Shown here one piece after another: positions 211-41,987 of a stretch of 64,000 bases of DNA (position 1 is the first letter of the stretch; each line of letters opens with the position of its first letter). This DNA comes from Streptococcus uberis (GTDB taxonomy: Bacteria; Bacillota; Bacilli; Lactobacillales; Streptococcaceae). Below the pieces are notes generated by a model, which was not told the origin of the DNA, searched no databases, and saw only the letters and a program-made list of their open reading frames with translations. The translations under genes were made by a program, and so were the position numbers. Where the stretch lies: assembly GCF_000785785.1 (NCBI RefSeq), contig NZ_JRQN01000003.1, forward strand, positions 1 through 64,000. Direction: 5' to 3'.

Positions 211-2895
211 TTAAATTGCTTTTTCATCGAGACCCATAGCACGTTGGATAGCTTTAACAATCTCAACCAGAACAACCATCAGTAATGAACCAATGACTAC
301 AACTAACCATTGTGTTGCACTTAAGTGTGATACATGGAAGAATTGATTAAATCCAGGTACAACAACCGTCACCATAAGCATGATGAAAGCTACTGGGATT
401 GAATAGTTGAATAATTTATTTCTGAAAAGACCAACCTTAAACATTGATTGGTAAACAGACTTAACATTGTAAGCATGAACCAATTGGATCAAACCAAGTG
501 TCACATATGCCATCGTTAAGGCATCAGCATGAACTTCTTTATAAGTAGCATGTTCTGGGAAGAATAATGCAAATGCATAGACGCCTAAAACAAGCATTGT
601 TTGGAAAGCTCCTTGATAAAGAATGGCTTCTTTAACACCACCGTCGAAGAAACTTGATTTACGACCACGAGGTTTATGCTTCATCACTCCTGGTTCAGCT
701 GGCTCTACACCTAAAGCAATAGCTGGAAGTGTATCAGTTACCAAGTTGATCCAAAGTAAATGAACAGGTTGTAAGACATCCCAACCAAATAATGTTGCTA
801 AGAAGATAGTAAATACTTCTGCCATATTTGCTGAGAGTAGGTACTGAATTGTTTTTTGAATATTTGAAAATACCTTGCGGCCTTCTTCAACGGCAACAAT
901 GATTGTTGCAAAGTTGTCATCAGCAAGGACCATGTCAGAAGCTCCTTTAGAAACCTCTGTACCAGTGATTCCCATACCAATTCCGATATCAGCTGTTTTA
1001 AGTGACGGTGCATCATTTACCCCATCACCTGTCATGGCAACAACTTTACCTTCATTTTGCCAAGCTTTAACGATACGTACTTTATGCTCAGGTGAAACAC
1101 GCGCATAAACTGAGTATTGTTTGAAGATTTTTTGGAACTCTTCATCAGAAATCTCATTAAGTTCCGCACCAGTGAAAACGTGATCTTCATGATCATTTTC
1201 ATCAATGATGCCAAGTCGCTTAGCAATTGCCTCAGCAGTATCTTGGTGGTCACCAGTAATCATGATTGGTCGAATGCCTGCCTCTTTTGCAACCTTAACG
1301 GCTTGAGCTGCTTCTGGACGTTCTGGGTCAATCATCCCAACAAGACCTGAGAAAACTAGCTCTGACTCAACAATATTTGATTCTAAAGTTGGCACAGATT
1401 CTGTGTATTTATAAGCCATCATTAATACACGAAGCGCTTGTTTAGCAAGACTCTTATTAGTTGCAAGGATAGTTTCTTTATCTTGATCGGTGATTGGACG
1501 AATTTGCCCATTTTCTTCAATTTGTGTGACACGTTTTAATAGCTGATCTGGAGCCCCTTTGACTGCTACAAAGTATTTTCCATCAGCTTCTTTGTGGATT
1601 GTTGACATCAATTTTCTGTCAGAGTCAAATGGTAATTCGGCAACACGGGGCTCAGTCACCATGTAATCTCGAACGTCAAAACTGTGGTCTAAACCGTATT
1701 GAACCAAGGCTGTTTCTGTTGGATCACCAATTAATTTACCAGTTTGGTCGATTTTTGTATCATTTGCATAAGTCATAACACGAAGTGTGTTATTTTCAGC
1801 AGGAATTTCTTGTGCTGAATCTTGTAAGCTACCATTTGTATAAATTTGCTCAACAGTCATTTGGTTCATTGTCAATGTCCCTGTTTTATCTGATGCAATG
1901 ATTTCTGTTGAACCTAATGTTTCAACTGCTGGTAATTTACGAATAATGGCATTACGTTTGGCTAACACTTGTGTACCAAGGGAAAGGACAACTGTAACTA
2001 TGGCAGGTAATCCTTCTGGAATTGCTGCAACGGCTAGTGCGACTGAAGTCATCAATCCTTCAAGAGGATGTTGACCTCTCAAGAAAACACCAACTGCAAA
2101 AGTTACTGCTGCAATAACTAAAATAGCATAAGTCAAAATCTTAGATAGGTTATCTAGATTTTGTTTTAATGGTGTATCTGTTTCGTCAGCATTAGCAAGC
2201 ATACCTGCGATATGTCCAACTTCAGTGTACATACCAGTATTTGTTACAAGACCTGTTCCACGTCCGTAAGTAACATTTGAGTTTTGATACCCCATATTAA
2301 CACGGTCACCAATACCTGCATCAGCAGCGACAGTTGCATTCAAATCTTTTTCTACGGGAACAGATTCACCTGTTAAAGCAGCTTCTTCAATCTTAAGCGA
2401 ACTTGCTTCTAAAAAGCGCATATCCGCCGGAACAACATCACCTGCTTCAAGTAAAACAATGTCTCCGGGAACCAATTCTTTAGAATCAACTTCCACAATA
2501 TGCCCATTGCGTCGTACACGAGCAATGGGACTAGACATAGATTTTAAGGCTGCAATGGCTGCTTCAGCCTGTCCTTCTTGATAAACCCCAAAAGCAGCAT
2601 TTAAAATAACAACTGCTAAGATAATGATGGCATCCGTTAACCCTTTTGAGCCTTCAGTGACCACTGACAAAATTGCTGCCACAATTAAGATAATAATCAT
2701 TAAATCTTTAAATTGATCAATGAATTTCATCAAGAGACTACGTTTTTCACCTTCATCAAGTTCATTTCGACCATATTCTGCTAATCGTTTTTCTGCTTGA
2801 TCGCTAGTTAAACCTTCTCTGCTAGAGTCTAGAATACTTAAGACAGATTCCTCCGACTCTACGTAAAAGGTGTGTTTCTTTTGTTCTTTCGACAA
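211..2895 (-). CDS. P-type cation (Ca2+/Mn2+) ATPase, PMR1/YoaB/MgtA-like
   Basis: An 894-residue P2A-type ATPase in the cytoplasmic membrane that pumps divalent cations. Visible features are the N-terminal cation-ATPase domain, TGES (175-178, actuator), PEGLP in TM4 (293-297), DKTGT with the phosphorylated Asp at 336, the MTGDGVND hinge, and about ten membrane segments. The start is a TTG at 2895 preceded by AAGGAGGAAAG; no in-frame ATG fits better. The gene sits behind a yybP-ykoY riboswitch. In Lactococcus (YoaB) and pneumococcus (MgtA) such riboswitch-controlled homologues protect against excess Mn2+ and handle Ca2+, so I infer export of Mn2+ and/or Ca2+. It is monocistronic. The family call is firm; the exact ion is inferred. 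Confidence 0.93.
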   Translation of the reverse strand: MSKEQKKHTFYVESEESVLSILDSSREGLTSDQAEKRLAEYGRNELDEGEKRSLLMKFIDQFKDLMIIILIVAAILSVVTEGSKGLTDAIIILAVVILNAAFGVYQEGQAEAAIAALKSMSSPIARVRRNGHIVEVDSKELVPGDIVLLEAGDVVPADMRFLEASSLKIEEAALTGESVPVEKDLNATVAADAGIGDRVNMGYQNSNVTYGRGTGLVTNTGMYTEVGHIAGMLANADETDTPLKQNLDNLSKILTYAILVIAAVTFAVGVFLRGQHPLEGLMTSVALAVAAIPEGLPAIVTVVLSLGTQVLAKRNAIIRKLPAVETLGSTEIIASDKTGTLTMNQMTVEQIYTNGSLQDSAQEIPAENNTLRVMTYANDTKIDQTGKLIGDPTETALVQYGLDHSFDVRDYMVTEPRVAELPFDSDRKLMSTIHKEADGKYFVAVKGAPDQLLKRVTQIEENGQIRPITDQDKETILATNKSLAKQALRVLMMAYKYTESVPTLESNIVESELVFSGLVGMIDPERPEAAQAVKVAKEAGIRPIMITGDHQDTAEAIAKRLGIIDENDHEDHVFTGAELNEISDEEFQKIFKQYSVYARVSPEHKVRIVKAWQNEGKVVAMTGDGVNDAPSLKTADIGIGMGITGTEVSKGASDMVLADDNFATIIVAVEEGRKVFSNIQKTIQYLLSANMAEVFTIFLATLFGWDVLQPVHLLWINLVTDTLPAIALGVEPAEPGVMKHKPRGRKSSFFDGGVKEAILYQGAFQTMLVLGVYAFALFFPEHATYKEVHADALTMAYVTLGLIQLVHAYNVKSVYQSMFKVGLFRNKLFNYSIPVAFIMLMVTVVVPGFNQFFHVSHLSATQWLVVVIGSLLMVVLVEIVKAIQRAMGLDEKAI

Positions 2896-2929
2896 ATTTC
2901 TTTCCTCCTTGGTCCCCTAAAAAGTATAT

Positions 2930-2960
2930 AAAAAGACCTGTTCATTTTCTTAAACAAGTC
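2930..2960 (-). terminator. Riboswitch expression-platform terminator
   Basis: On the minus strand GACTTGTT and GAACAGGTC pair across a short loop and are followed by TTTTT. The 5' arm contains the CTTG that also closes P1 of the aptamer, so terminator and ligand-bound aptamer exclude each other. This predicts that metal binding turns the ATPase gene on. Confidence 0.75.
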
Positions 2961-3045
2961 TCGCTGTTTCAGACTGTGCCGGAAATCGAAATTCCGTAAT
3001 GACGACACAAGCCACGGTAAACCGTCTGCTACTCCCTTGATATAG
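2950..3045 (-). promoter_or_regulatory. yybP-ykoY (Mn2+) riboswitch
   Basis: Read on the minus strand the leader contains the family hallmarks in order: CAAGGGAGTAGC, a CGGTTTACCG hairpin, the TGTGTCGTCA ... CCGGCACA pairing, and the terminal AGCGAGACTTG element, whose CTTG closes P1 with CAAG. The layout matches the Bacillus yybP and Lactococcus yoaB leaders. Known members sense Mn2+ and switch on efflux genes. It precedes the P-type ATPase start by about 55 nt, with a terminator in between. Confidence 0.9.
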
Positions 3046-3049
3046 GAAT

Positions 3050-3078
3050 ATTATATTAAAATTTCTAGGAAAACACAA
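3050..3078 (-). promoter_or_regulatory. Promoter of riboswitch/ATPase transcript
   Basis: -10 TATAAT (3050-3055) and -35 TTGTGT (3073-3078) on the minus strand, 17-bp spacer. Transcription would begin a few bases before the riboswitch. Confidence 0.75.
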
Positions 3079-3173
3079 GTGAAAACACCGCAATTTTCAA
3101 AAAAACAAGCTTATTCATCAGATGATTTATCGTATCTTATTCCCGTAATTTTCATCAAATCGATCTAATTCTA

Positions 3174-3735
3174 TTATAGATATAAACCTTTTTTACCAGA
3201 TAGATTTTCTCGGATAGAAGCCTCAATTTCATTAACAAGGTCAGATGATTTCATTTTGTGTGTTTCTTTCAATTCAATCTTAGCTGTGATTAAAATATCA
3301 ATTGCACTGAGATGGATTGTTTTGATATCAATAACCCGCTGAACATCTTCATGGTGAAAAACTGACTTTATCAACTGCAAATCAGCAGCACTTACTCTTT
3401 CACCAAATAGTAAGCCATAGAATTCCCTAGCTTACAGTATTGCAACTACGCAGAGCATCAGACCTATCAGTAAACCTGAGAAGGCATCATAGAAACTATT
3501 CTGAGTTAGCATCGTTAAAACAGTTCCAACAATGGCAAGAGCGAGTCCAATAACGGCACAAAAGTCCTCATCAAAAACGATTATAGTTTCATTATGGCGG
3601 CTTTCAGAAATTTAAGAATAACTGTCTTTTCCGTATTTAAATCATTTATTTCTTTAAAAGCAACTCGTAAACTGCTTCCTTCAACCATCATACCAAAGAC
3701 GCAATAATACTGGCCATACTATGACTCTTTTTCGT
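3174..3735 (-). pseudogene. Remnant of CDF-family cation transporter
   Basis: The C-terminal half of a cation diffusion facilitator survives in pieces. Around 3690-3735 a fragment reading SMASIIASLV / MMVEGSSLRVAFKEI is visible, then a frameshift near 3600, then EDFCAVIGLALAIVGTVL and YDAFSGLLIGLMLCVVAIL, an in-frame TAA near 3435, and finally AREFYGLLFGE plus the cytoplasmic domain ending at 3174. The N-terminal membrane half with the metal-site residues is absent. With at least two frameshifts, a stop and a truncation this is a true decayed gene. Intact members export Zn2+, Mn2+ or Fe2+. It lies next to the Mn-riboswitch ATPase. Confidence 0.8.
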
Positions 3736-24888: not shown

Positions 24889-27800
24889 ATGTCAGTTTTA
24901 ACACTAAATTTATTAGGCAACCCTTCAATTCTTCTGGACCAAAAAGAAATTTTTTTCTCCTTCTCTAAAATTAATGCCTTGCTCTATTATATGGTAATTA
25001 ATGGTAACGTTAATCGCGATCAAATTGCTGGCATCCTTTGGGAAGATAAAGATAATCAAACTGCAAAAAAAAATCTGCGTAATACAATTTATCAGGTTAA
25101 TAAAATTCTGGGTGACGATTTTATCATCTGTCCCAGTCGCTCGATTTTAGCATTCAATCCTGATTTAACTATTGAAGCTGATGTTACTGAGTTTTTAGCA
25201 GATCCTAGCCACCATTTAGATTTATATCAGGGTGATTTTTTACAAGGATTCTACTTAAAATCGAATGAAACTTTTGACCTTTGGTTAACTAAAATGCGTT
25301 CTCATTGTGAACAGATGTTCATTAAATGTTCTTATCAAAAAATCGAGCAAATGATGACTACTGCTCCTTTTGAAGAGGTTGAAGAAACAATTTTTCACCT
25401 CATAACAATTGATGAATATGAAGAGAAAAATTACCAATTATTAATGCGTCTTTATCAACACCACCGTCGTTTCGGGAAAGTGATTGAGATTTATTATAAA
25501 ATGGTCAATTTATTAGATAAAGAACTAGGAATAGCACCCAGTGAAACTAGTCAACAAATCTATGAAGAAGTTGTTGCTAAAAATCGAAATCAACGAAAAG
25601 TTACTCAGTTCCTTAAAACAACTAATCAATTTTACGGACGGATTAATGAAATTAAAGCTCTTGAAACTTATTTTAATAAGATACTAGAAAGCTCACAACC
25701 TCGAACAATGCTCTTAGTTGGTGGGACTGGCATTGGAAAAAGGACTGTTACCAGGCAAGTTCTTTCAAATCAAACTAAAGAGTTTCAAATTGTTACCTCT
25801 GAATGCTTCCGGGAGGACAGTCAAAATTCACTTCGCCTCTGGCAAGAAATTACTGACGGCTTAGGAGATTTAGTCATCCAACATCAGCTGATGACGACAA
25901 GTGAATGGAAAAACCGAATTCAAGATTTCTTTCCATCGCTACTTTCTGATCAAAGTGTCATTATCAATCAGTCCGAACTAGTTGCCTTTATTATTGACCT
26001 AATTAAAGGAATTGCAGAACAAAAAGCAACTGTTGTCCTGATTGAAGATATTCATTTTATGGATACTGATGGCATTAATATCCTTCAAAATATTATTAAT
26101 CATATCAAGAACTTGCCTGTTGCATTCGTCTTGACCAAACATGTGGATTCTTCAAGAGAGTTAGACTTGTTTATTAATCAACTGGTCTATAGAAAAAAAC
26201 TGGATCAGCTACAGTTAAACCCCTTATCAGAAAAAGAAAGTTTAGCTTATCTCCATCACAAATTAGACCATCTCAATTTAGGGGACCAAGATTTTCAACA
26301 AATTCTCACCCTAAGTCAAGGTAACCCATTTTTCCTCTCAGAATACTGTGCGCAGCAATTGCAAGGCTATAAATTCCAAACTTTGACGCCAGCAATGGAA
26401 GCAAAATTCGCTATTAAATTAGAGCAAGTCAATAGTCAAGCAGCCGAGCTCTTAAATTATCTGGCCTGCTTTAACATGTCTGCTTCACTTCCTCTTTTGT
26501 CTGAATTGCTGACCCTTTCCTACCAAGATTGTTTGGATATGGTCGAAGACTTATGCCATCAACAAATTCTGGAAGAAACATATAGTGAGCAAGAAGTTAA
26601 TTGTCGTTTCCATCAGAGAGTATTTGCCATCTACTGCTATGAACATCTTACAATTGCCAAACGCAGAATGATGCATGCGCAAATTGCTCAGAGCTTGGAA
26701 AAGAGTATCCATCAACATCATGATCCAAGTCACCTCTTTAATGAGATTTCTTATCATTATAAGCGTGCCAAACAACCAATTAAAGCCTTAGCATTTCAAT
26801 TGAATCATCTGGAATCTATTTTGCAGTTTCACCATGAACTGTTCCCAATTTACTCTCAGACAAATGAGCAAATCAGTCCCTCTTGGAATGAAAAACACCA
26901 GCTTATTCAAAATCAATTTGACCAAATTCGTAAACAAATTGATGAACTAAAATTACGTTTTGAGAAAATCAAAGATTTCCAAGAATCATTAATTAAGTTT
27001 CTTTATTTGGAAGGCTGCTACATGATTCGTGTTGGTCAGTATCAACAAGGGATTGCTAATATCCAAAGGGTAATTGCTTTCGCTAATGAGTGGCGTCACA
27101 CAGACTACCTACTTGAAGGGTATCGCCAATTGATTTACTACTGTATCCAAGTAGAAAACATCCCCGAAATGAAGTACTACACTGATTTAGCACTCGATGC
27201 TTCGGTGGAGGCAAATAACCATGAAGCTATCGCCATTAACCTTAGATTGCACGGCCTCTATTATCTGATGGTGGGAAGAATTGACGACGCCATTCACCAG
27301 ATCAATGAATCAATTAATTGCTTCAGTTTAACAGCTAGTCTAAGAAGTAAGTATGCTATTCAAATTGCTGCTGCCTTAGACTATTTGGCAGAAATTAAAC
27401 AAATGCAAGGGAATCCTGATCAAGCCATGGCGTATCAGCAAAAAGCAATTATATTATCACAAAACAATTTAAATGAGCCATCAATCATCTCATTTTACAT
27501 TGGATTAGGAATATCCTACTATTACAAACAAGATTATGAAAATGCTGAACGAATCTTTATGCAATCCAAGAAAGCATTAAAATCATTGCGTTTTCCCTGG
27601 AAAGAAACGCAATTAGAAGTTTATTCAACTCTGATTAATTGTTCAAAAGGAGATTATCAGTCCTTAATTGATGTCATTAATAAACAAGATTGTTTGATTT
27701 CACGCTATTCAAATCCACGTGATAAGGCTATATTAATTATTTATTTGCCATAATAGCCTATAAACTGCAAACGAATATCATTCGGGATGACAGACTTCAA

Positions 27801-27926
27801 ACACTCTTAACCCATGATTTCCAATATTATTATTCAACTGCAAAGACACACCTTAATCCTTATCGGGACTGTCAATTAATTAAAGAATTAGATTCTCTGA
27901 ACAAAGAAATCGTTCTATCAAAGTAA
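24889..27926 (+). pseudogene. SARP/BTAD-type transcriptional regulator with AAA and TPR domains, 3' frameshift
   Basis: A large cytosolic regulator, 1012 residues once the frame is restored. The order is an N-terminal winged-helix DNA-binding domain (about 1-95), a bacterial transcriptional activation (BTAD) TPR domain (about 96-245), an AAA/STAND-type ATPase with Walker A GGTGIGKRT (about 279-287) and Walker B VVLIEDIHFMD (about 381-391), then a long TPR-like C-terminus. ATG 24889 follows GGAGG; the GTG at 24868 is upstream of it. Near 27729 the frame breaks (GCTATATT present, GCTTATATT expected) and the true C-terminus continues to 27926. It lies next to hutG, convergent to it, and is a plausible hut regulator, which is inference. 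Confidence 0.8.
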
Positions 27927-27982
27927 AAAACCTAATATGGAGATTTGAGTTCAAAACTCTTTCTCCTTATCAGGTTTTTATT
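27924..27982. terminator. Bidirectional terminator between regulator and hutG
   Basis: An outer stem AAAAACCT/AGGTTTTT and inner GGAG/CTCC and TTGAGTT/AACTC-type pairings form a large hairpin with A- and T-runs on both sides. Confidence 0.75.
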
Positions 27983-28988
27983 TTATGATTTTAATAATTT
28001 GATGTTTCTGGGCAAGAATCTGCGTAATATAAAAAATAAATGTTGCAGCTAGGTTAGCCGTATGATTATCAATATCATGTGGTGGCGATACTTCTACCAA
28101 GTCAAAACCAATCAATTTACCACTTGCTGCAATATGTTGCAAAACAATCAGAGCTAATTGCGGATCTACACCTAAAGATTGAATGGCACTAACACCTGGG
28201 GCATGACCAACATTAAAACAATCCATATCAATAGTTAAATAAACGTGTTCTTTATCTTTCAAAAAATCATCGACAGCTAGACAAACTTTTTGATAGCCCA
28301 TCATATACATGTCTTGACCAGTTAAAAACTGGATAGCTTTTGATTTAGCAACAAAATCGAAAAGAAATAGATTATTATTATGCTCTTGAATTCCCAAAAC
28401 CATATAGGGAAAAACTTGTTTTTTAGCCAAGGTATAGTCAAACATTTGTCTAAAACCAGTGCCAGAATTTGGTCCAGTATGCTCATATGGCCGAAGGTCA
28501 AAATGGGCATCCATATTAATTACTGCTAACTCTTCGTGAGCTTCCATGGATTCCTTTAGTCCTAAATAATGGCCATAGGCAGTTCCATGACCGCCACCTA
28601 AGACGATAGGGATAATTTGTAATTGTCTCATTCGCTTCACAGCTGCCGCAAGAGCCATTTGCATGTCTTCCAAAGAATAATTTGGAGCATCAATGTCACC
28701 ACAATCATATAATACTACTGAATTGCCAAAATGCCAAGGTAACTTAGCTAATTGTGAACGAATGGCAATTGGACCTTCACCTGCTCCAACCCGACCATTG
28801 TTGATGTAAACACCTTTATCACTTTTAAAGCCAATAATACCAAAGGCAATTCCTTGTTCTGGAACAAGGTCTGGATTATTTAAATCAAGGAACGACATAA
28901 GCATTCCCCATTTAGCATTATATAAATCTGTGTCTTCAATTCCAGGTCTATAATATGAGCAACTTGTTGGGAAATAATGGTTTAACAT
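27978..28988 (-). CDS. hutG: Formimidoylglutamase
   Basis: A 336-residue Mn2+-dependent ureohydrolase of the arginase family. It converts N-formimidoyl-glutamate to glutamate and formamide. Metal ligands appear in [22 protein letters not shown] and [14 protein letters not shown], followed by [12 protein letters not shown]. It has its own consensus promoter and is separated from hutH by a terminator, so it can be expressed independently of the rest of the hut operon. AAGGAGGAAG precedes the ATG. Confidence 0.93.
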
Positions 28989-29179: not shown

Positions 29180-30721
29180 CTAGAATTGAATAGTAAGATC
29201 TACTTCTTTTTCAACTGCTGCTAAGAACTCTTTGCTTTCAATAACTTCAGATGCTTTATTCAATTCGTCATAGATTTCGATATCTTTATCAAATTCAATA
29301 AATTTAAGAGTCTTACGAAATACATCGTATGCTGGTTGTGTACCTTTACCAAGGTTGCCATTTTCTGGTTTAAGGTCCAATGCTTGGCAGGCAGCCATAA
29401 TTTCTGTAGCAACAATGCGACGAGAATTTTTTAGGATTTCTCCAGCTTTACGCGCAGCAATTGTCCCCATACTGACAAAGTCTTCTTGGTTTTCACAAGA
29501 TGGAATGGAATCCACACTTGCTGGATGTGCTAAAACTTTATTTTCTGAAGCTAAAGCTGCACAAGCATATTGTGTAATCATAAATCCTGAATTTAGACCT
29601 GGGTGTTTCACTAAGAATGACGGTAGTTTACTTAACTGTGTATTAACTAACCGTTCTACACGACGTTCAGAAACATTTCCAATTTCTGAAATGGCAATGC
29701 CTAGGAAGTCAAATGGTTGTGCCATAGGTTCTCCATGGAAGTTGCCTCCAGAAATAACATGTCCGTCTTTACAGATGATTGGATTATCAGTAACGGAGTT
29801 AATTTCAATTTCTACTTTTTCTTTGACATAGGCAATTGAGTCTTTACTTGCACCATGAATTTGTGGAATACAACGCAATGTATATGGGTCTTGTACGTGA
29901 TCCTGCGTAGCTTCAGATATATTCTTACTGCCTTCAATTAGATTACGGATATTACGAGCAGTAGCTAATTGTCCGCTTTGAGGGCGAATAGTATGCAATC
30001 TTTCTTCGAAAGGACTGTTAATACCATTATGGACTTCTAGAGAAAGTGCGCCAGCGATATCTGAAAGTTTTAATAATTGAATAGCATCATAAGTCGCTAA
30101 AGCACCAATTGCAGTTAATACAGTTGTACCATTGATAAGAGCAAGACCTTCTTTAGCAGCAAGTTCGATTGGTTCAATTCCTGCTTTTTTCAACGCTTCT
30201 TTACCAGCCAATAGTTCACCTTTATAGTAAGCTTTACCCAAACCTAAGATTGGTAATACCATGTGAGCTAGGGGAGCCAAGTCACCAGACGCACCTAATG
30301 AGCCTTTTTCTGGAATATAAGGGTGTACACCTTTGTTTAAGAGTTCAAGCAATTTTTCAATGGTTGACAAACGGATTCCTGAAAAACCTTTAACCAATGA
30401 GTTAATACGAATTAACATGATAGCACGAACTGCATCTTCTGGTAATGGATCACCAAAACCTGATGAGTGAGTTCTAATTAAGTTTTCTTGCAATTGTCTT
30501 GTGTCTTCAGGTGAGATAGAAACGTTACATAGAGAACCAAAACCAGTATTAATCCCATAAACGACACGTTTTTCTCTTACTATATCATCAACTATTTTAC
30601 GTGATTCAGTTACTTCTTTTTTTGCATTCTCATCAATTTGACATTGCTGACCTTCACGAGCAACTGTTATCACATCTTCTAATGTTAAACTATTCCCATC
30701 TAAATTCAAAATTTTTGTCAT
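29180..30721 (-). CDS. hutH: Histidine ammonia-lyase
   Basis: A 513-residue enzyme for the first step of histidine catabolism, histidine to urocanate and ammonia. The tripeptide Ala-Ser-Gly that cyclises to the MIO electrophile is at 144-146 in GSLGASGDLAP. YGINTGFG (55-62) and the C-terminal SCENQEDFVSMG region are typical. Length is standard. A GAGGAGG site precedes ATG 30721. It lies 24 nt after the permease gene and is the last gene of the long hut transcript before a terminator. Confidence 0.96.
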   Translation of the reverse strand: MTKILNLDGNSLTLEDVITVAREGQQCQIDENAKKEVTESRKIVDDIVREKRVVYGINTGFGSLCNVSISPEDTRQLQENLIRTHSSGFGDPLPEDAVRAIMLIRINSLVKGFSGIRLSTIEKLLELLNKGVHPYIPEKGSLGASGDLAPLAHMVLPILGLGKAYYKGELLAGKEALKKAGIEPIELAAKEGLALINGTTVLTAIGALATYDAIQLLKLSDIAGALSLEVHNGINSPFEERLHTIRPQSGQLATARNIRNLIEGSKNISEATQDHVQDPYTLRCIPQIHGASKDSIAYVKEKVEIEINSVTDNPIICKDGHVISGGNFHGEPMAQPFDFLGIAISEIGNVSERRVERLVNTQLSKLPSFLVKHPGLNSGFMITQYACAALASENKVLAHPASVDSIPSCENQEDFVSMGTIAARKAGEILKNSRRIVATEIMAACQALDLKPENGNLGKGTQPAYDVFRKTLKFIEFDKDIEIYDELNKASEVIESKEFLAAVEKEVDLTIQF

Positions 30722-30745: not shown

Positions 30746-32083
30746 TTAATTTCTTGTATCTGATGCTTTATTATTATGTTTATTTCCATGCATTAGGAAA
30801 TAAAGTGTACATGAAATAGCTACACCCACAATACCGTACACAACGTTCATTGGGTTATCACCAATAATCATTAATAAACTAATTACAACTGCAACAATTG
30901 GAATTACCGGACCAAATGGTACACGGAATGTGACATTAGCATTTGGTTCAAGTTTACGCATTTTATTTACAGCTAAAGCAGTTGGAATGTATTGGAAGAA
31001 ACGGAAAACAACTGAAAGTGCTGCTAATTTTTCAAATGATCCAGTTAGCAAGAGTACAATAGCAATCATACTTGAAACCGCAATGGCAACTACAGGCGCA
31101 CCATTTTTATTTTGTTTAGCAATGGCAGAAGGTAATAATCCCTCATCCGCAATAGCAGCACCATAGCGTGGAACCATAATTGATTCACCCATATTAAGTC
31201 CAGTAATTGAAATTAAAGCTCCAATCGAAACCATCCAAGCGCCCACAGGACCAATCATTTTAACAAAGGCATCTTGCACTGCTGCATTTGTATTCATAAT
31301 GCCGCCACCAAGCATTGCAATTGTTCCAGCAATAATTAGCATATATAGAATAGATACGATTGAAATTGAGCTTAAAATGGCTCTAGGTACATTTTTTTTG
31401 GGATCACGCATTTCTCCGGCTACAATTGAAAGTGTTTCAAATCCAATGAAACCATAGAAAATATATACAGCGGTATTAGAAATCGCACCTAATAGATCAG
31501 TACCCGATTCCAATTGAACAAATGGTGTAAAATTAGGTAAGCCATTTTTAATAAAGAATATGGTACAAATTGAGAATGCAACAATTGGAATAAGTTTTGC
31601 AATAGTTGCTGTAATGGTTAAAACTTTTGATGTTTTCAAACCTGCAATATTCATTAAAGAAAGTAGCACAACTAAGCCTATACTCAGTGGAATATTCCAA
31701 CCTTCAAAAGCAGGGAAGGTAATAATGAACATTTTTGCAAAACCAGCAGCCATGGCAGCCCAAGCAAAGATGGTTACTGCCCAGCCAAGTATACCTACGT
31801 TAAAGCCAATAAAATCACCAAAGGCGCGTTTTGAATATTGGAAGGCCCCGCCATTTTTTCCAAAATAGCCGGAAACTTCTGCAAAACAAACTGCAAGCAT
31901 TATTGTCAATACGGCTGTCCCTGCCATTACTAGAATTGAAGCAGGTCCTAAACCTTTATAAATACTTTGTGGAAGTAAGAAAATCCCAGAACCAATGACT
32001 GCATTAATACCATACAAGGTTGCTCCACTAAGTGAGAATTTTGCGTCTTCCCGTTCTTGCGCGCTAAGTTTATTTGAATCCAT
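30746..32083 (-). CDS. APC-family amino-acid permease, probably histidine uptake
   Basis: A 445-residue amino acid-polyamine-organocation superfamily transporter with about twelve membrane segments. The TM1 unwound motif GINAVIGSGIFLLP and the TM6 region GFIGFETLSIVAGEMRDPKKNVPRA are clear. I take the ATG at 32083 (MDSNKLSAQ) with AAGGAGGAG 9 nt upstream rather than the upstream ATG at 32116, which lies inside hutD. Position inside the hut operon argues for histidine (or urocanate) import; the sequence alone does not show the substrate. Confidence 0.85.
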   Translation of the reverse strand: MDSNKLSAQEREDAKFSLSGATLYGINAVIGSGIFLLPQSIYKGLGPASILVMAGTAVLTIMLAVCFAEVSGYFGKNGGAFQYSKRAFGDFIGFNVGILGWAVTIFAWAAMAAGFAKMFIITFPAFEGWNIPLSIGLVVLLSLMNIAGLKTSKVLTITATIAKLIPIVAFSICTIFFIKNGLPNFTPFVQLESGTDLLGAISNTAVYIFYGFIGFETLSIVAGEMRDPKKNVPRAILSSISIVSILYMLIIAGTIAMLGGGIMNTNAAVQDAFVKMIGPVGAWMVSIGALISITGLNMGESIMVPRYGAAIADEGLLPSAIAKQNKNGAPVVAIAVSSMIAIVLLLTGSFEKLAALSVVFRFFQYIPTALAVNKMRKLEPNANVTFRVPFGPVIPIVAVVISLLMIIGDNPMNVVYGIVGVAISCTLYFLMHGNKHNNKASDTRN

Positions 32084-32108
32084 AATATTGCTCCTCCTTA
32101 AAGAGCCT

Positions 32109-32723
32109 TTAATCATGCAAACTTAATCCATCTCTGTCTGATAACCCCGCCCAAACCGCTATCATTTTGCCAATTTCATGATAGGGAGATAATGTTATCT
32201 TTATTGGGTTATTTGTGGAATTTTTTTCTACAATTAATAAATGATTTGCTTGTAATATCCCTTCACAGATATTTTCAATTTGAAAATGGAGGTCATTTAG
32301 TGCATAAATGAATTGAATAGGATTATTGTCACAAATTGGATCATTATTGCGAGCGATAGCCTTCATCTGGCCGACATAATTATTATTATATATTAAATTA
32401 AAGTCTGTGCATTCCCCTCTACTAATTATTTTTTCCCTTCCTTCAAAAGAATAACTTTCGAAAGCTTGTAACGGTTTTTCCACTTGCTTATCTTTAAGTG
32501 AAAGTATGATTGGCTTATCTAAGCTCATAATTAAACGATGATATCCAGTTAAATCAGAGAATTCAGATTGCGCTAATTCAACAGTTGCTGTTGATAAACG
32601 GTAGTCAAATTTTCGATTTTGGAAGTCACCTGTTTCAGGGAAAAGAAACAACTGTTTTGTTTTTCCCCCTGACCAGGTTGAACTATGGAAATCAGATTCA
32701 CTTAAAATTTTAATTTGTATCAT
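32109..32723 (-). CDS. hutD: HutD/Ves-family cupin protein
   Basis: A 204-residue HutD-family protein with a bicupin-like fold. It is recognisable from SSTWSGGKTKQLFLFPE near the start (W-SGG-T motif), the FDYRLSTATVE strand, GYHRLIMSLDKPI and the C-terminal ADHLLIVE-like segment. In other bacteria HutD accompanies hut genes and is thought to limit or sense pathway intermediates, but its biochemical role is unsettled. It starts 8 nt after the fhs stop with no real Shine-Dalgarno, so it is probably translationally coupled. Confidence 0.83.
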   Translation of the reverse strand: MIQIKILSESDFHSSTWSGGKTKQLFLFPETGDFQNRKFDYRLSTATVELAQSEFSDLTGYHRLIMSLDKPIILSLKDKQVEKPLQAFESYSFEGREKIISRGECTDFNLIYNNNYVGQMKAIARNNDPICDNNPIQFIYALNDLHFQIENICEGILQANHLLIVEKNSTNNPIKITLSPYHEIGKMIAVWAGLSDRDGLSLHD

Positions 32724-32731
32724 AGTATTTT

Positions 32732-34405
32732 TTAGAACAAACCAGTGATGTTGCCTTGGTCATCAATATCAATTTTTTCACTTGCTGGTACTTTAGGAAG
32801 TCCTGGCATTGTCATTACTGCACCAGTAAGTGCAACAATAAATCCAGCTCCTGCTGAAACTTTCAGATTAGAGATTTTAACTGTAAAGTCTTTTGGTGCA
32901 CCTAGTTTTTTAGCATCATCTGAAAATGAATATTGCGTTTTTGCCATACAGATTGGATAATTTCCAAAACCTAATCTTTCCAAATCATTCATTTCTCGTT
33001 TAGCTGCTGGTGTTAATGAAATTCCTTTACCACCATAAACTTTCGTAACAATTTTAGTTAATTTTGTTTCAATGCTGTCAGTTTCATCATAGACAAATGA
33101 GAAATTATTTTCTTTTTCTGCTAATGCAACAACCTTTTCAGCTAACTCAGCACCACCTGCTCCGCCATTTGCCCAAACGTCTGAAATAACAACATCGACA
33201 TGACGTTTTTCGCAAGCATCATAAACGGCTTTTAATTCAGCGTCGGTATCAAGTGGGAACTTATTAATCGCTACAACAACTGGTAAACCATAGACTTCTT
33301 GAATATTTTCTAAATGTTTATCTAAATTTGGGAGACCATCCAAGACTGCTTGGACATTTTCTGTACCTAAATCAGCTTTTGCTACACCACCATGCATTTT
33401 TAAAGCACGAATTGTAGCAACTAAAACAACTGCTGAAGGTCTAATACCAGAGAGACGGCATTTAATATCAATAAATTTTTCAGCGCCTAAGTCAGCTCCA
33501 AATCCAGCTTCAGTAACTGCATAATCTGCATATTTGAGGGCTAATTTAGTTGCTAAAACACTATTACAGCCATGTGCAATATTAGCAAATGGACCACCAT
33601 GGATTAAAGCAGGTGTGTGTTCAAGGGTTTGAACAATATTTGGATGAATAGCTTCTTTTAGGAGAGCTGCCATTGCACCTTCTGCTTTTAAATCATGTGC
33701 AGTAACGGGATCACCTTGAAAATTGTAACCAATAATAATTTTGCCTAAACGTTCTTTCAAATCTGAAATTGATTCTGATAAACATAAAATAGCCATGATT
33801 TCAGAAGCTACGGTAATGTCGTACCCATCTTCACGAGGAACACCATTTACTTTTCCTTGAAGGCCATTGACGATGTGGCGTAATTGCCGATCGTTCATGT
33901 CAACAACCCGTTTCCATGTGATGCGACGTGAATCAATACCTAATGTGTTCCCATGGTGAATATGATTATCAATTAAGGCAGCTAACAGGTTATTGGCAAT
34001 TCCGATAGCATGAAAATCACCTGTAAAGTGTAAGTTAATGTCTTCCATTGGAACAACCTGAGCATGGCCACCGCCAGCTGCCCCACCTTTTACTCCAAAG
34101 ACTGGCCCTAAAGAAGGTTCCCTAAGTGCAATTACAGCCTTTTTCCCAATATGTGATAAGGCATCTACCAAACCAACCGAAGTTGTTGTTTTACCTTCAC
34201 CAGCAGGTGTCGGTGAGATTGCTGTCACTAAAATTAACTTACCATCTTTTTTCTCTTTCAATGTAGCTAATTGTCTGGCATCAATTTTAGCCTTATATTT
34301 TCCATAGAGGGTTAAGGCATCTTCTTCAATACCAATTGATTGGGCCACATCAGTAATCGGACTCATGTCAACTGAATTTGCAATTTCAATATCTGATAGC
34401 ACCAT
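32732..34405 (-). CDS. fhs: Formate-tetrahydrofolate ligase
   Basis: A 557-residue cytosolic enzyme interconverting formate plus THF plus ATP and 10-formyl-THF. The nucleotide loop [12 protein letters not shown] (about 66-77) and the [10 protein letters not shown] and NIAHGCNS segments are intact. Here it follows ftcD and fchA. The formimino carbon of histidine can therefore be passed to THF and finally released as formate with ATP formation, or used for purines. AAGGAG precedes the ATG. Streptococci can carry a second fhs elsewhere; that cannot be judged from this window. Confidence 0.95.
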
Positions 34406-34416: not shown

Positions 34417-35043
34417 TTATAAACTATGTAATACCTCTGTATAAATCTTATCGGCTAGTTGACAGCCTTCTTCCAAGATAGTTTGTCCTCTAGTTTTATA
34501 ACTATCTACAAACTCAGTATCCTTTATCCCAGCTAGGTTAATCAGAACATTTAACCACGCTCCTTGTAAACCAGCTTTTAAATTCAATGCCGCAACACCT
34601 AAATCACTTGCAGCATTAGTGTTTGAATGACCAACAGCTTTTTCTGTAACTTTAATAGCTTCAAGCATTTGTTCCATCATGCTAAAAGGTGATTTTGTAG
34701 CTTCCTTCAAGGCATTTTGCATTGCCTGTCTGCGAGCTAATTTATCATCATCAGTTTCCTTTGGCATATCAAATACTGCAGATACAAGGTTGAAAGCTTC
34801 TGTATCTTTATCAATAGCTGCTAAGAGGTCCATTTGTAATTGACTACTTGCTTCATGCACTGTTTTGATCAATGCTTCTTCATCAGCATATTTTTTCTTA
34901 CCAAGTGTTAATTCACAAACCATTTGGGTTAAAGAAATACCATTTGCAGCTGACAAAGCAGCTGCAGACCCTCCTCCAGGAGCTGGAGCATCTGATCCCA
35001 ATACCTGGGCAAATTCAAAGAGAGATAGATCGACTAATTTCAT
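34417..35043 (-). CDS. fchA: Formimidoyltetrahydrofolate cyclodeaminase
   Basis: A 208-residue all-helical cyclodeaminase converting 5-formimino-THF to 5,10-methenyl-THF and ammonia. The signature [17 protein letters not shown] (residues 20-36) and the four-helix pattern match the FTCD_C family. It sits between ftcD and fhs in the order of the pathway, 13 nt after ftcD. The bacterial protein is separate from FtcD, whereas the mammalian enzyme is fused. Confidence 0.93.
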
Positions 35044-35056: not shown

Positions 35057-35956
35057 TTACCCTAGTAGGTGGTTTTCTAGTACTTGTTTGTGATAGTCAA
35101 AGTCTTCGACTTGGAGATAATATTCTGCAACATCAACAAGCGCTTTAGCAGGTGCTAAGCCAATAATTTCAGAACCAATGACATTTACACCATAGCGACG
35201 TGCTTCAAATTTGATGGTTTCGAATGTACGATAAAGCGAGCATTTTTCGAAGTTAACCATGTTCATTGAAACTTGTGCAATATTACGGTCTTCAAGCATT
35301 AATCCAATACCTTTACAATATTTGTAACCGCCTGATGATCCACGAATAATCTTAGCAATATTTTTGGCAACATCTACATTGTCAGTATCTAGGTTTACGT
35401 TAAATGCGACTAATGGCATACGAGCTCCAATTGCAGTTACACCTGCTGTCGGATGGACTTTGCGTTCACCAAAGTCTGGTGCCCAGTCTTCTTCCAATAA
35501 TTTTTCAGGCATACCTTCAAATTGGCCTTTACGAACTTTAGCTAAATTTTGACGTTCTGGTCGGCTAGCAGAATCTTCATATAGGAAAATTGGAATATTG
35601 AGTTCACTATTTACACGTTCCGCAACTTTTTTAGAAATTTCTACACATTCTTCAGTCGTAATTTCTTTAATTGGAACAAAAGGACACACATCGGTTGCAC
35701 CCATTCGAGGATGTTCACCTTGATGTTTTGTCATATCAATAGTTTCACTGGCAAATTTTATCAATTGGAAAGCTACTTCTTGGATTGATTCTTCATCACC
35801 AACTAAGGTAAATACACTACGGTTGTGACTGGCATCTGATGAATAATCTAACAGGGTTACTCCAGCTACGCTTTTTGCTATTTTCACAAGACCATCAATG
35901 ACACCCTGATTACGACCTTCTGAAAAGTTAGGAATACATTCAACAATTTTTGACAT
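35057..35956 (-). CDS. ftcD: Glutamate formimidoyltransferase
   Basis: A 299-residue enzyme transferring the formimino group from formiminoglutamate to THF. ECIPNFSEGRN at the N-terminus, DYSSDASHNRSVFT with the catalytic-region His, and HPRMGATDVCPFVP are diagnostic. GAGGAGG precedes the ATG. A 134-bp gap with a perfect cre site separates it from hutU. Confidence 0.94.
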   Translation of the reverse strand: MSKIVECIPNFSEGRNQGVIDGLVKIAKSVAGVTLLDYSSDASHNRSVFTLVGDEESIQEVAFQLIKFASETIDMTKHQGEHPRMGATDVCPFVPIKEITTEECVEISKKVAERVNSELNIPIFLYEDSASRPERQNLAKVRKGQFEGMPEKLLEEDWAPDFGERKVHPTAGVTAIGARMPLVAFNVNLDTDNVDVAKNIAKIIRGSSGGYKYCKGIGLMLEDRNIAQVSMNMVNFEKCSLYRTFETIKFEARRYGVNVIGSEIIGLAPAKALVDVAEYYLQVEDFDYHKQVLENHLLG

Positions 35957-36090: not shown

Positions 36091-38121
36091 CTATTTAAAT
36101 AATTTTGCTACTGAATCTTTAATTAAATCTTCGTCAGTTAGATATGGAATGGTAATATGATCTGTACCTTCATGCAGACGATTGTATTCAATTGCTGTTT
36201 CAATGGCATGATCATTTCGTGCCCAGTTACGTCTTGCAACACCACCCATAGTGTCCCAAGCAATGGCAGATTTAATAATTTCGTCAATCCGTTCACTACC
36301 ATCCAAGACAAGTCCAAAACCACCGTTGATAGCTTTACCAATACCAGTACCACCACCATTATGGAGAGCAACTAAACTCATACCACGCGCAGCATTACCA
36401 GCATAACATTGGACAGCCATATCAGCACAAATATTTGAGCCATCTTTGATATTAGAAGTTTCACGGAATGGTGAATCGGTACCAGATACGTCATGGTGGT
36501 CACGACCAATCATGACTGGGCCAATTTTACCTTCACGAACTAATTCATTAAATTTAAGAGCTATATTAACACGACCCATACAATCTTGATAAAGGATACG
36601 TGCTTGTGTTCCAACAACTAATTTATTCTTTTCAGCATCGCGAATCCAGTTGTAATTATCACGATCTTGATAACGACGATTTGGATCAATTGCTTCCATA
36701 GCTGCATGGTCAGTAGCAACTAAATCTTCGTGTTTACCACTCAAACAACACCAACGGAATGGACCATAACCATAGTCAAATAACATTGGACCCATGATAT
36801 CTTCAACATATGAAGGCCAAATAAAGCCATCTTTATCATCACGCCCATTTTTTGAAATTTCCATAACACCTGAATCAAATACTGATTTCATGAAGGCATT
36901 ACCATAGTCGAAGAAGTAGGTTCCGTTACTTGTTAATTCTTTGATAGCTTTGAAGTGACGACCTAAAGTTTCATCAACCATTTCAATGAATTTATCTTTA
37001 TCTTCAGCTAAAAGTTTAGTCCGTTCGTCAAAAGTGATACCCACAGGGCAATAACCACCATCATAAACATTATGACAAGATGTTTGGTCTGATAACAAAT
37101 CAACGTGAATATGTTCTTTATTGACATATTCTAATAAGTCAACAATATTTCCGTGGTAAGCAATTGATGTAGTTTCTTTTGCTTCTTGAGCTTTTTGGGC
37201 TAATTGCAGAGCTTCCTCAGGACTTTCTGCGATTTGGCTTACCCACCCCTGTGAATGACGAGTTTCGATACGTGAAGCGTCTACTTCGGCAATAATTGCA
37301 ACTGCTTTTGCAATCTCAGCAGCTTTACCTTGAGCACCACTCATACCACCAAGACCAGAAGAAATAAATAATTTACCAGTCAAATCACCATCATCGGCAA
37401 CACCTAATTTAAGACGACCAGCATTTAGTAAGGTATTAAATGTACCATGGACAATACCTTGTGGGCCAATGTACATCCAACCACCAGCTGTCATTTGACC
37501 ATAATTAGTAACACCCATTTCTTCAGCAATTTCCCAGTCTTTCATGTTGTCATATTCACCTACTAAGAGGCCATTAGTAATGATAACACGTGGAGCTTCT
37601 GGTTTAGATTTGAACAATCCTAATGGGTGACCTGACTCAACAACCAATGTTTGTTCATCTGTCATCACTTCCAAGTATTTCTTAATCAAATTGTATTGTA
37701 ACCAGTTGGCACAAACTGAACCAGTTTCACCATAAGTTACTAATTCATAAGGGTATAATGCAATTTCAAAGGACAAGTTATTATCAATCATCACTTGCAT
37801 CGCTTTGGCAGCTGTGCTATTTCCTTTATAGTCATCAATTGGTTTGCCATAGATTCTTTCATTTGGACGCCATCTGTAAGCATAGATACGGCCCCGAGTT
37901 TTTAATTCTTCAAGAAATTCTGGAATCACTTCCTCATGGAATTTTTTAGGGACATAACGCAAGGCATTTTTTAGTGCTGTTTCAGTTTGTTCCTGAGTTA
38001 AGCGGAACCCTCTATCTGGAGCACGACGGATACCTTCCTCAAATACTGTTTTTTCTGGCAATACATCATCCAGTTTTACAGTCATAGCAGCTGCAATGTC
38101 AGCTTCACTATAAGTTGTCAT
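36091..38121 (-). CDS. hutU: Urocanate hydratase
   Basis: A 676-residue NAD+-dependent urocanase, second step of histidine degradation, urocanate to imidazolone propionate. LFISSGLGGMSGAQGKAA is the NAD-binding region, and YDGGYCPVGITFDER with GRDHHDVSGTDSPFRET belong to the active site. This is the longer Gram-positive form. CTGAGGAGG precedes the ATG. It is the first gene of the minus-strand hut operon and divergent from hutI, with 207 bp between them. Confidence 0.96.
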   Translation of the reverse strand: MTTYSEADIAAAMTVKLDDVLPEKTVFEEGIRRAPDRGFRLTQEQTETALKNALRYVPKKFHEEVIPEFLEELKTRGRIYAYRWRPNERIYGKPIDDYKGNSTAAKAMQVMIDNNLSFEIALYPYELVTYGETGSVCANWLQYNLIKKYLEVMTDEQTLVVESGHPLGLFKSKPEAPRVIITNGLLVGEYDNMKDWEIAEEMGVTNYGQMTAGGWMYIGPQGIVHGTFNTLLNAGRLKLGVADDGDLTGKLFISSGLGGMSGAQGKAAEIAKAVAIIAEVDASRIETRHSQGWVSQIAESPEEALQLAQKAQEAKETTSIAYHGNIVDLLEYVNKEHIHVDLLSDQTSCHNVYDGGYCPVGITFDERTKLLAEDKDKFIEMVDETLGRHFKAIKELTSNGTYFFDYGNAFMKSVFDSGVMEISKNGRDDKDGFIWPSYVEDIMGPMLFDYGYGPFRWCCLSGKHEDLVATDHAAMEAIDPNRRYQDRDNYNWIRDAEKNKLVVGTQARILYQDCMGRVNIALKFNELVREGKIGPVMIGRDHHDVSGTDSPFRETSNIKDGSNICADMAVQCYAGNAARGMSLVALHNGGGTGIGKAINGGFGLVLDGSERIDEIIKSAIAWDTMGGVARRNWARNDHAIETAIEYNRLHEGTDHITIPYLTDEDLIKDSVAKLFK

Positions 38122-38186
38122 AGAAAAACCTCCTCAGTTTTTTCATCTTTTTGATGTTTTATTTTCACTTGTAGTGTAAAATACTA

Positions 38187-38196
38187 TCGTCGACGA
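38187..38196. promoter_or_regulatory. Palindrome in the hutU/hutI intergenic region
   Basis: A perfect GC-containing palindrome TCGTCGACGA in very AT-rich DNA, about 65 bp before hutU and 130 bp before hutI. It lies next to possible hutU -10 elements (TATTTT or TACACT). A regulator site is plausible but unproven. Confidence 0.4.
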
Positions 38197-38276
38197 AATG
38201 TCACTTTTTGAGATATTTTTAACAAATAATTCAAAATTTTTATTTTTCTATTTTTTTGACAAAAATTAGACGGTTT

Positions 38277-38307
38277 TTAACTACTATTTAGATGATAGAT
38301 ATATAAT
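38277..38307 (+). promoter_or_regulatory. Putative hutI promoter
   Basis: -35 TTAACT (38277-38282), 17-bp spacer, -10 TATATA (38300-38305), overlapping a TATAAT. The start codon is at 38329 with AAAGGAG. Confidence 0.5.
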
Positions 38308-38328: not shown

Positions 38329-39596
38329 ATGTCTGCTGATTTACTGTTAGTTCATTTCGATCAAGTCTTTTGCCCACAGGACATGGGACATCCACTCTTT
38401 GGCGATCAAATGAAAAATGCTCAAATATTAGACGATGGCTTTATTGCTATCAAAGACGGAAAAATTTTAGCTGTCGGTTCTGGCCAACCTGATTCAGATT
38501 TAATAGGTCCAGCGACTAAAGTTAAATCATATGAAGGAAAAATTGCTACACCTGGACTGATTGACTGTCATACGCATTTAGTTTATGGCGGAAGCCGCGA
38601 GCATGAATTTGCTAAAAAACTAAATGGTGTTTCCTATCTAGATATTCTAGCTCAAGGTGGAGGGATTCTTAGCACCGTCAAAGCAACTCGCCAAGCTGAT
38701 TTTGATACACTTTATCAAAAATCGGCACAACTATTAGATTATATGCTTTTACATGGAACAACTACTGTTGAAGCCAAAAGTGGCTATGGTTTAAATTGGG
38801 AAACTGAATTACGCCAATTACAAGTTGTTAAACAATTAAATGCTGACCATCAAATTGACTTAGTTTCAACTTTTATGGCTGCTCATGCTATTCCAACAGA
38901 GTATAAAGGACATTCTCAAGACTATTTAGAGCACATTGTTAATGACATGCTCCCAAAAGTTAAAGAAGAAAACCTAGCTGAGTTCTGTGATATCTTCTGT
39001 GAAAAAGGGGTATTTACAGCTGATGAATCTCGCTATTTATTATCAAAAGCAAAAGAGCTTGGCTTTAAGTTGCGTATCCATGCTGATGAGATTGAGTCAA
39101 TTGGTGGTGTTGATGTTGCTGCTGAACTTGAAGCAGTTTCTGCAGAACATTTAATGATGGCAACGGATCAAGCATTGCAAAAATGGCGCAAGCCAAAGTT
39201 ATTGGTAACCTCCTTCCAGCAACAACCTTTAGTTTAATGGAAGATACCTATGCACCAGCTAAAAAAATGATTGATGCAGGTATGGCAATCACTTTATCAA
39301 CAGATAGTAATCCTGGTTCTTGCCCAACTGCCAATATCCAATTTGTCATGCAATTAGGTTGCTTTATGATGCGACTTACCCCAATTGAAGTCTTAAACGC
39401 CGTAACGATTAATGCTGCTTACTCCGTAAATAGACAAGAATCAATTGGAAGTTTTGATAAAGGCAAATTAGCTGACATTGCAATCTTTAATGCCAATAAT
39501 ATTGATTACCCATTCTACTTCTTTGCCACAAATCTTATTCACCAAGTCTATAAAAATGGTAAATTAGTCGTCAAAGAAGGCCATATTGCACACTAA
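38329..39596 (+). pseudogene. hutI: Imidazolonepropionase, one-base frameshift
   Basis: An amidohydrolase-family enzyme for the third hut step, imidazolone propionate to formiminoglutamate. The metal site [29 protein letters not shown] and [10 protein letters not shown] are in the first frame. At about 39172 the frame breaks (GATCAAGCATTGC present, GATCAAGGCATTGC expected). The second frame continues [27 protein letters not shown] and the C-terminus. Restored length is 422 residues, typical for HutI. If the break were real, the pathway would stop at imidazolone propionate although all other genes are intact, so a sequence error is more likely. Confidence 0.88.
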
Positions 39597-40926: not shown

Positions 40927-41948
40927 TTATCTTCTAATAAAAAGTTTTGTCAAAATAAATGTACCTACGATGGCAATCACTCCTGTTAGTAAAATCGCTA
41001 TTACTTGTGGCCAAAAATGTTTTGGTAATAAAACGACCAGGAAGATACTTCCACAAAAACCGCCAATTCCATTAATCGCAAAAGAATTAACACTATCATT
41101 CGCAGCAAATTTTTGTCCATATGAAGTGGTAAATAGGTAAGTTATTAAACTTGAAATACCACAAATAATGACCATCTGTAAGGTATTGACATAGCCTACA
41201 CCTACTGTACTTGTTACCAGTCCAACGATGACCCCATCAAGTAGTGAACTAGTTATTTCTTTTTTGTTTTTATAATACGACAGAATGGTCCAAGTAGATC
41301 CGCCAATAATTATAGCCAAAAGTGTATTTAACAGTACAAGAGCTGCTTGATTATTCCAACCACCAGCAGATCCCATATTAAAACCAAACCAACCAAATGA
41401 GATAAAAATCATCCCCAAAAATTGAAAGACATCATCATTTTTTCTGTAGTAATTGGCTTTTGTTTTACTTGTTTAGCTAATACAAGAGCTGAAAGTCCCG
41501 CAGCTAAATGGACTACTAGACCACCTGAAAAATCTAAAACACCAAGTTGAAATAAAAAACTATCCTTATTCCAGATAAGAAACGCTAAAGGACAATAGAC
41601 CAGAAAGACCCATGAAAAAACAAGCAATAATAAGTTTTTCGTTTGTATTCTGTCGATGGCTGCGCCAATAAACATAAGAACAGCATAAAGGCAAAAACAA
41701 AGCTGAAAAAGCATTTGACTAATTCTAGTCTTATCCAGGTTTGCTGTCAAACTGAAAATAGTTGACACTCTTTGCTCAAAAGTTAAAAAATAGGCCCCTA
41801 GAAACCAAGCCAAACAGGTTACCACTATCACTAAGGTATAACGATAAATGATCGTCGTCCATAAGCTATGATTGATAACTGCCAGATAAGAAAAAGCAAG
41901 GCCAAAAATCATTAACCACATCGTCAAAATACAAACCAATAAAAACAT
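40927..41948 (-). pseudogene. Amt-like ammonium transporter, one-base frameshift, divergent pore
   Basis: A polytopic protein of the Amt/Rh superfamily. LDFSGGLVVHLAAG corresponds to the conserved Asp/first pore His motif, and ISFGWFGFNMGSAGG, ALVLLNTLLA and DSVNSFAINGIGG follow in the proper order. The frame breaks in an A5 tract (41417-41421, one base short of FNFLGMIF). Restored length is 340 residues, shorter than most Amt proteins. Where other Amt proteins have the second pore His, this one reads ING. I use ATG 41948 (MFLLVCIL) because AAAGGA fits it better than the ATG at 41957. No GlnK gene is adjacent. Transport activity is uncertain. Confidence 0.68.
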
Positions 41949-41987
41949 GTAGCACATCCTTTACAAAAAAAATTTCTTTGGTATCCT

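Follow-up and report, generated by a model that had tools for sequence, protein, structure and literature searches.

The window analysed here is a stretch of 64,000 nucleotides of Streptococcus uberis DNA (contig NZ_JRQN01000003.1), in which a gene starting at position 24889 encodes a regulator of the Streptomyces antibiotic regulatory protein (SARP) type at the end of a histidine utilization (hut) cluster. On the basis of sequence comparisons, we consider it very likely that this protein is a transcriptional activator dedicated to the hut regulon and acting locally, similar to AfsR of Streptomyces coelicolor and sensing a pathway metabolite through a tetratricopeptide repeat (TPR) domain like that of MalT. 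An earlier note, made from the sequence alone, had described a SARP-like AAA/TPR regulator at this place and had named it a candidate histidine regulator. The description was borne out, as BTAD, AAA_16 and TPR_12 domains were all found and the gene is convergent with hutG, and the proposed role is supported by the pairing of regulator and hut and by the operator-like repeats of SARP type that the hut promoters carry. We establish the architecture of the protein, its predicted fold, its near-obligate pairing with hut, the geometry of the operator and the absence of the motif at three hut operons that have no regulator. From these data we infer that the protein binds the repeat motif and that it activates rather than represses. 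The SARP mechanism, mainly known from antibiotic clusters, would thereby reach into the core catabolism of amino acids in Gram-positives of low GC content.

Pairing was followed in 247 Streptococcus genomes, 345 Lactobacillales genomes and 71 genomes sampled across the phylum; the genomes in these sets are related, and the counts are not numbers of independent events. Loci L032 and L033 were left out of every count, and L031 (S. catagoni) contributes to neither the pairing nor the motif counts. Among the Streptococcus genomes, the regulator was found in 67 and hutH and hutU in 69 each, and every genome with the hut type of the window has the regulator (66/66; none without). Conservation of the pairing across streptococci, the check that had been suggested, thus holds throughout, and in every streptococcal hut locus, that of the window and the 65 others, the regulator adjoins hutG and converges with it. 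The 67th regulator, in G108, lies on a 3.8-kb contig that holds the regulator and hutG facing each other; apart from this genome, and from a distant paralogue in G321 outside the genus, we found no regulator in a species without hut. Across the streptococcal loci, identity is 84-97% for hutH (the G070 copy being split) but spans 36-93% for the regulator; close kinship alone does not account for the pairing.

The association extends well beyond the genus. Among the Lactobacillales genomes, the regulator profile was matched in 47 (14 of 79 genera) and hutU in 50, with both present in 46, namely 18 Streptococcus and 28 others, out of 32 non-streptococcal genomes that have hutU. When 26 of these 28 were fetched, the regulator lay beside or inside hut in every one, in at least two arrangements, and in the other two (G260 and G274) regulator and hutU are adjacent by coordinates. 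The four remaining genomes, all of genus g7, carry hutU but no regulator, and hut forms a single operon in the three that were fetched. Within the phylum sample, only the window's own genome and G573 matched; the latter belongs to another class and has the order fchA-ftcD-hutI-hutU-regulator. It is this spread over 14 genera and several gene orders, along with the regulator-less controls, that carries the weight of the pairing.

The region between the divergent hutU and hutI genes contains a direct repeat, TTTGACnnnnTTTGACG, with a period of 11 bp, followed by TAnnnT 9 bp on; this gap is counted from TTTGACG and shrinks to 8 bp when the frame of the heptamer is moved on by one base. In the window, the candidate operator and -10 element facing hutI (38255-38287, plus strand) read TTTGACA-4 bp-TTAGACG, 9 bp, TACTAT. 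A site with the same layout lies about 80 bp away on the opposite strand, facing hutU (38173-38205, minus strand); it is degenerate in the window, where it reads AGTGACA-4 bp-GTCGACG, 9 bp, TACACT. SARP targets are described as direct repeats spaced 11 or 22 bp, with the 3′ repeat 8 bp from the -10 element (PMC10936776), and the hut sites have this arrangement, although their use by the protein is deduced. For AfsR, two protomers were placed on a 22-bp box from -40 to -19, where they engage region 4 of sigma (PMC10936776). Both systems thus share a pair of 11-bp direct repeats immediately before the -10 element. However, the repeat in our case is TTTGACG, and the regulator belongs to a cluster for primary catabolism in Gram-positives of low GC content.

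The full motif faces hutI in 65 of 66 streptococcal loci and in 21 of the 26 loci of other genera (the repeat alone in 24), and it faces hutU in 44 of 66 and 19 of 26, respectively (the repeat alone in 22 of the 26). Every locus with regulator and hut has the repeat on at least one side. No motif was found within 420 bp upstream of hutU in the three regulator-less operons of g7 (0/3). Upstream of the distant hut type, whose proteins are about 30% identical, six stretches gave no full motif, one of them having the repeat without a -10 element. Outside these sites, the streptococcal loci contain 13 further full motifs in 2.62 Mb of strand. A strict form, TTTGAC-N5-TTNGACG-N9-TANNNT, was present in 61 of the 247 Streptococcus genomes, once in each, and 60 of these matches lie between hutU and hutI of genomes with the regulator; the strict form is lacking in six of the 66 genomes with regulator and hut (G069, G089, G150, G198, G203 and G209). 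A control pattern with a 10-bp period matched in a single genome of the 247 (G203, at its own hut promoter), and the strict pattern read backward gave five matches in four genomes of the 247.

Two further analyses point to the same sites. We trained a position matrix on 13 clade-collapsed streptococcal hutI-side sites and scored it over loci of 17-19.5 kb. Its top match was the hutI-facing site in 20 of the 26 loci from other genera and in 63 of the 65 streptococcal ones, the latter not being independent of the training, and the hutU-facing site was among the top two matches in 40 and among the top three in 56 of the 65 streptococcal loci. When [TA]GAC pairs were counted in 37 clade representatives, 29 had a pair 11 bp apart facing hutI and 26 facing hutU, against means of 0.34 and 0.22, respectively, and maxima of 2 in 100 shuffles; the shuffle was an approximate, home-made one intended to preserve neighbouring bases. 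Pairs at any other distance from 5 to 40 bp never exceeded 5. The distance from the repeat to TAnnnT is constant in 27 of the 29 and 23 of the 26 representatives, respectively. A normal -35 element would stand 16-18 bp from the -10 element, and neither repeat does.

The protein itself has the composition of a large SARP. The window protein comprises an OmpR-like winged helix with a BTAD domain (about residues 1-235), a NOD/AAA_16 domain (about 247-500), a helical linker and a MalT-like TPR tail (about 600-954), so that NOD and TPR lie C-terminal to the SARP domain as in the AfsR type. The Pfam scores were 36.2 bits for BTAD (cut-off 22.1), 48.2 for AAA_16 (cut-off 32.6) and 48.2 for TPR_12. 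At 1e-3, BTAD was found in 18 of 18 aligned relatives and TPR_MalT in 13 of 18. The models were built on the homologue from locus L034, which is 93% identical to the window protein and is encoded by a single open frame of 1012 amino acids. The full-length AlphaFold model (mean predicted local distance difference test score, pLDDT, 84.6; predicted template modelling score 0.60) matches STAND-TPR proteins, Apaf-1 and MalT in fold searches. Its TPR tail (residues 625-1012) is closest to MalT domain III (1hz4; Z 25.1, root-mean-square deviation 3.5 over 334 residues), with other TPR proteins close behind (Z 24.5 and lower). Neither AfsR nor EmbR is among the 50 matches that VIA gave for the full-length model, most of which are taken up by the TPR tail. 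Because the tail dominates these matches, a model of the N-terminal 245 residues (pLDDT 91.5) was searched separately with Foldseek and VIA, and here the best matches were AfsR and EmbR (Z 15.2-17.1; with VIA, 17.1 for AfsR and 15.3 for EmbR), the next being at 10.8. As modelled, then, the protein would have the N-terminal OmpR-type winged helix followed by BTAD, in the AfsR/EmbR fold, that is the mark of the SARP family.

The domain order and size (about 950-1040 amino acids here, 993 in AfsR) and the fold of the SARP domain (Z 17.1) are AfsR-like. In contrast, the sequence score against the AfsR equivalog NF053617 is 8.6 bits, which falls short of the cut-off of 1430, and a sequence search of the PDB reached AfsR only at E 0.0036. 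The link to the AfsR family thus rests on fold and operator. A C-terminal helix-turn-helix of the LuxR type, as in LuxR/LAL regulators, had no Pfam match at E up to 1 in the window protein, nor is a LuxR-type domain among the 11 families found at 1e-3 in the 18 aligned members. MalT, the STAND-type maltose activator of Escherichia coli, resembles the regulator in its sensor tail, but its DNA-binding domain is C-terminal and of the LuxR type instead of an N-terminal SARP domain. It is a local catabolic activator with a STAND ATPase, and domain III is its maltotriose-sensing part.

The STAND-like ATPase and long TPR tail proposed in the earlier note need one amendment. The tail is there and so is the ATPase fold, but the Walker A motif, canonically GxxxxGK[ST], is degenerate in streptococci: none of the 62 streptococcal proteins aligned (S. 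catagoni included) has it, the lysine being followed by Arg, Lys or His in all of them, whereas K[ST] is present in 23 of 24 proteins from other Lactobacillales genera. This also sets the streptococcal proteins apart from AfsR. In the window protein the motif reads GGTGIGKR (Walker A region 25696-25758); a canonical motif may not be a strict mark of large SARPs. The presumed recognition helix, on the other hand, is invariant at K61, N62, L63, R64, N65 (KNLRN) and Y68 in an alignment of 87 proteins (the 62 and 24 above and the G321 paralogue). Such invariance is in step with the constancy of the operator.

We propose that two SARP-domain protomers would sit side by side on the two TTTGACG repeats, 11 bp apart, at the position of the -35 element, and that the SARP domains would recruit RNA polymerase to the divergent promoters of hutI and the hutU operon, as AfsR does at afsS. 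The MalT-like TPR tail would act as the gate, freeing the SARP domain via the nucleotide-binding domain, and would probably sense histidine or an intermediate of the pathway. Urocanate is our first guess for the inducer, and the role of ATP is likewise a guess. Catabolite control would be layered on top of the regulator. In S. pyogenes, hut was 5.7-fold higher in a mutant of ccpA and 2.3-fold higher in one of covR (PMC2841617), and since deletion of either gene raises its transcripts, hut is not under one factor alone, a point that weighs against a regulator acting as the only switch. Stretches like AAGCGCTTTC, which resemble cre sites of CcpA, lie immediately upstream of the hutI-facing repeats in L153, L156, L164 and L168, suggesting that such layering may occur.

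Other observations speak against the proposed role as well. Of the 66 streptococcal loci, 22 (the window among them) have no full motif facing hutU, and 5 of the 26 loci of other genera have none facing hutI. The matrix has its top match away from the hutI-facing site in two streptococcal loci out of 65 and in six of the 26 others, one strict match occurs in a genome without hut (G044), which we took as chance, and the repeat looks like -35 hexamers. In addition, the regulator is frame-shifted in the window, and the copies in L045, L068, L069 and L077 look broken although hutU is still open there.

The alternative that survives best, unlikely as we find it, is that the regulator acts on hut not as an activator but as a repressor relieved by an inducer, in the manner of HutC. 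Deletion of brpL, its probable counterpart in S. sanguinis discussed below, raised many transcripts (PMC5987052), and the site overlaps the promoter, which would make occlusion possible. However, the AfsR site at the equivalent position activates (PMC10936776), and the hut promoters look activator-dependent, having no normal -35 spacing.

A second alternative comes from published work. BrpL (SSA_0427 of S. sanguinis SK36) is annotated as SARP-like with BTAD and TPR domains; its gene was reported in S. pyogenes, S. gordonii, S. cristatus, S. dysgalactiae, S. parauberis and S. canis and as absent from S. mutans and S. pneumoniae (PMC5987052). From this description and species distribution, BrpL is very probably an orthologue of the window regulator, although it was published as a LuxR-family biofilm regulator (PMC5987052), and the gene family is thus probably not wholly unstudied. 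Its deletion changed biofilm formation and the expression of 474 genes, phosphotransferase system genes among them, the authors stressing ciaR, glucan and carbohydrate genes (PMC5987052), and the main text of that paper never mentions hut; both facts count against our reading. The protein could then be a broad regulator of biofilm and carbohydrate genes that merely lies beside hut, without hut being its main target. We regard this as quite improbable, given that regulator and hut type occur together in 66 of 66 streptococcal and 28 of 32 other hutU-bearing Lactobacillales genomes, that their adjacency holds in several gene orders and in a genome of another class, and that the strict operator-like motif is found about once per genome, at hut; the wide expression changes may be secondary. 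An activator of hut would also offer a simpler account of the biofilm phenotype of BrpL. Least probable of all is that the repeats are read by another factor, as the effects of CcpA and CovR on hut might suggest, or are simply promoter, TTGAC being the core of a -35 element, with the SARP protein acting elsewhere or not on DNA: the repeats stand about 9 or 20 bp from the -10 element, not 17, at a distance that is fixed, they have the 11-bp period that SARPs need while the 10-bp version is confined to one genome, and they are absent upstream of the three regulator-less operons.

Returning to the regulator as an activator of hut, a bolder version of this reading is possible, though we would hold it only tentatively. 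The protein may represent a hitherto unrecognised class of hut regulator, a SARP of the AfsR type that would have been inherited together with hut in Lactobacillales and outside the order. Its streptococcal branch, having lost the canonical Thr or Ser of Walker A, would switch when a metabolite binds the TPR domain, with no normal hydrolysis of ATP, and the biofilm phenotype of BrpL might then lie downstream of mis-set histidine and one-carbon metabolism.

HutC, a GntR repressor, and HutP, an RNA-binding antiterminator, are local hut regulators, and both are unrelated to the SARP regulator in protein and mechanism. That the cluster contains neither of them, as the earlier note had it, agrees with our scan of ten window proteins, among which none was HutP-like or HutC-like. 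In the open-licence literature we found no SARP-type hut regulator among the matches listed and no report of a local hut regulator for streptococci; hut and histidine have no occurrence in the main text of a regulon paper on lactic acid bacteria (PMC3616900), and the accessible text of PMC9413887 names no hut regulator for Streptococcus. The assignment to hut therefore appears to be new, while the gene family itself is not. A study of necrotizing fasciitis recorded a mean rise of more than 6 log2 units for the histidine genes of S. pyogenes in infected hindlimbs (PMC6803311). The outcome of our analysis is a candidate hut regulator, a 33-bp operator-plus-promoter element and a public RNA-seq dataset of the brpL deletion, GSE110307, in which the proposal can be tested.

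In this assembly the regulator gene is frame-shifted near its 3′ end. The open reading frame runs from the ATG at 24889 to 27753 on the plus strand (954 amino acids), and the gene span of 24889-27926 given earlier is thus correct at its start but not at its end, where an in-frame stop intervenes at 27751-27753. The last 57 or so codons, which encode the conserved C-terminal tail (27754-27926, plus strand), sit in a different frame here but are in frame in relatives, and the gene is intact in most relatives, at about 975-1025 amino acids. The hutI gene (38329-39596, plus strand) is split as well, into two overlapping frames, while that of L034 is an open frame of 422 amino acids, and the gene of an Amt-like ammonium transporter (40927-41957) is apparently in two frames too. 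These three frame breaks fall inside about 15 kb of an assembly of 96 contigs, and they fit either decay or indel and sequencing errors.

The remaining hut genes form a run on the minus strand in the order hutU-ftcD-fchA-fhs-hutD-hutT-hutH-hutG. The run is opened by hutU (urocanase, 36091-38121), from which hutI (imidazolonepropionase) is divergent, and continues with ftcD (glutamate formiminotransferase, 35057-35956), fchA (formiminotransferase-cyclodeaminase family, 34417-35043), fhs (formate-tetrahydrofolate ligase, 32732-34405), hutD (32109-32723), a hutT-like amino-acid permease gene (30746-32116), hutH (histidine ammonia-lyase, 29180-30721) and, as the last gene, hutG (formiminoglutamase of the arginase family, 27978-28988), which is convergent with the regulator. 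Pfam confirms eight of the nine genes in the cluster; for the ninth, the split hutI, the first half had no Pfam match at 1e-5, although it does match the hutI loci of relatives. On its other side, the regulator is preceded by lysS in the window, in S. catagoni (L031) and in L034, L036-L038 and L057. We rejected lysS as a general partner of the regulator, because just 5 of the 65 other streptococcal loci have it in the 2.5 kb upstream, while hutG is on the other side in all 65.

Hut-like loci in G068, G142 and G190 were not counted as this hut type, being about 30% identical, with a different gene set and without the regulator. In L102 (7804-12155), a urocanase-like and an ammonia-lyase gene of this low identity to hut proteins lie, together with a DUF917-like gene, next to ABC-transporter-like genes; G142 and G190 gave similar matches.

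In the G573 locus (L182, 4254-12313), the regulator directly follows fchA-ftcD-hutI-hutU. No motif was found there upstream of fchA, and just past the regulator, near the contig end, we saw by eye TCGACG-5 bp-TTGACG with TATACT 8 bp on. The distant paralogue in G321 (E 1e-162), a genome without hutU, precedes genes for folD-like, formate/nitrite-type transporter, folC-like, FTCD-like, fchA and fhs products (L149, 2524-13838), several of these names having been read from translations. A repeat of the same type, TTTGACGTTTTGTAGATG, followed by TAGAAT, lies before the folD-like gene, and the regulator family may thus serve formimino and formyl metabolism more widely. Finally, in L178, a regulator-less hut operon of g7, a second HutD-like gene (2536-3198, minus strand; read from its translation) is located divergently upstream of hutU and is a candidate for a replacement control system.

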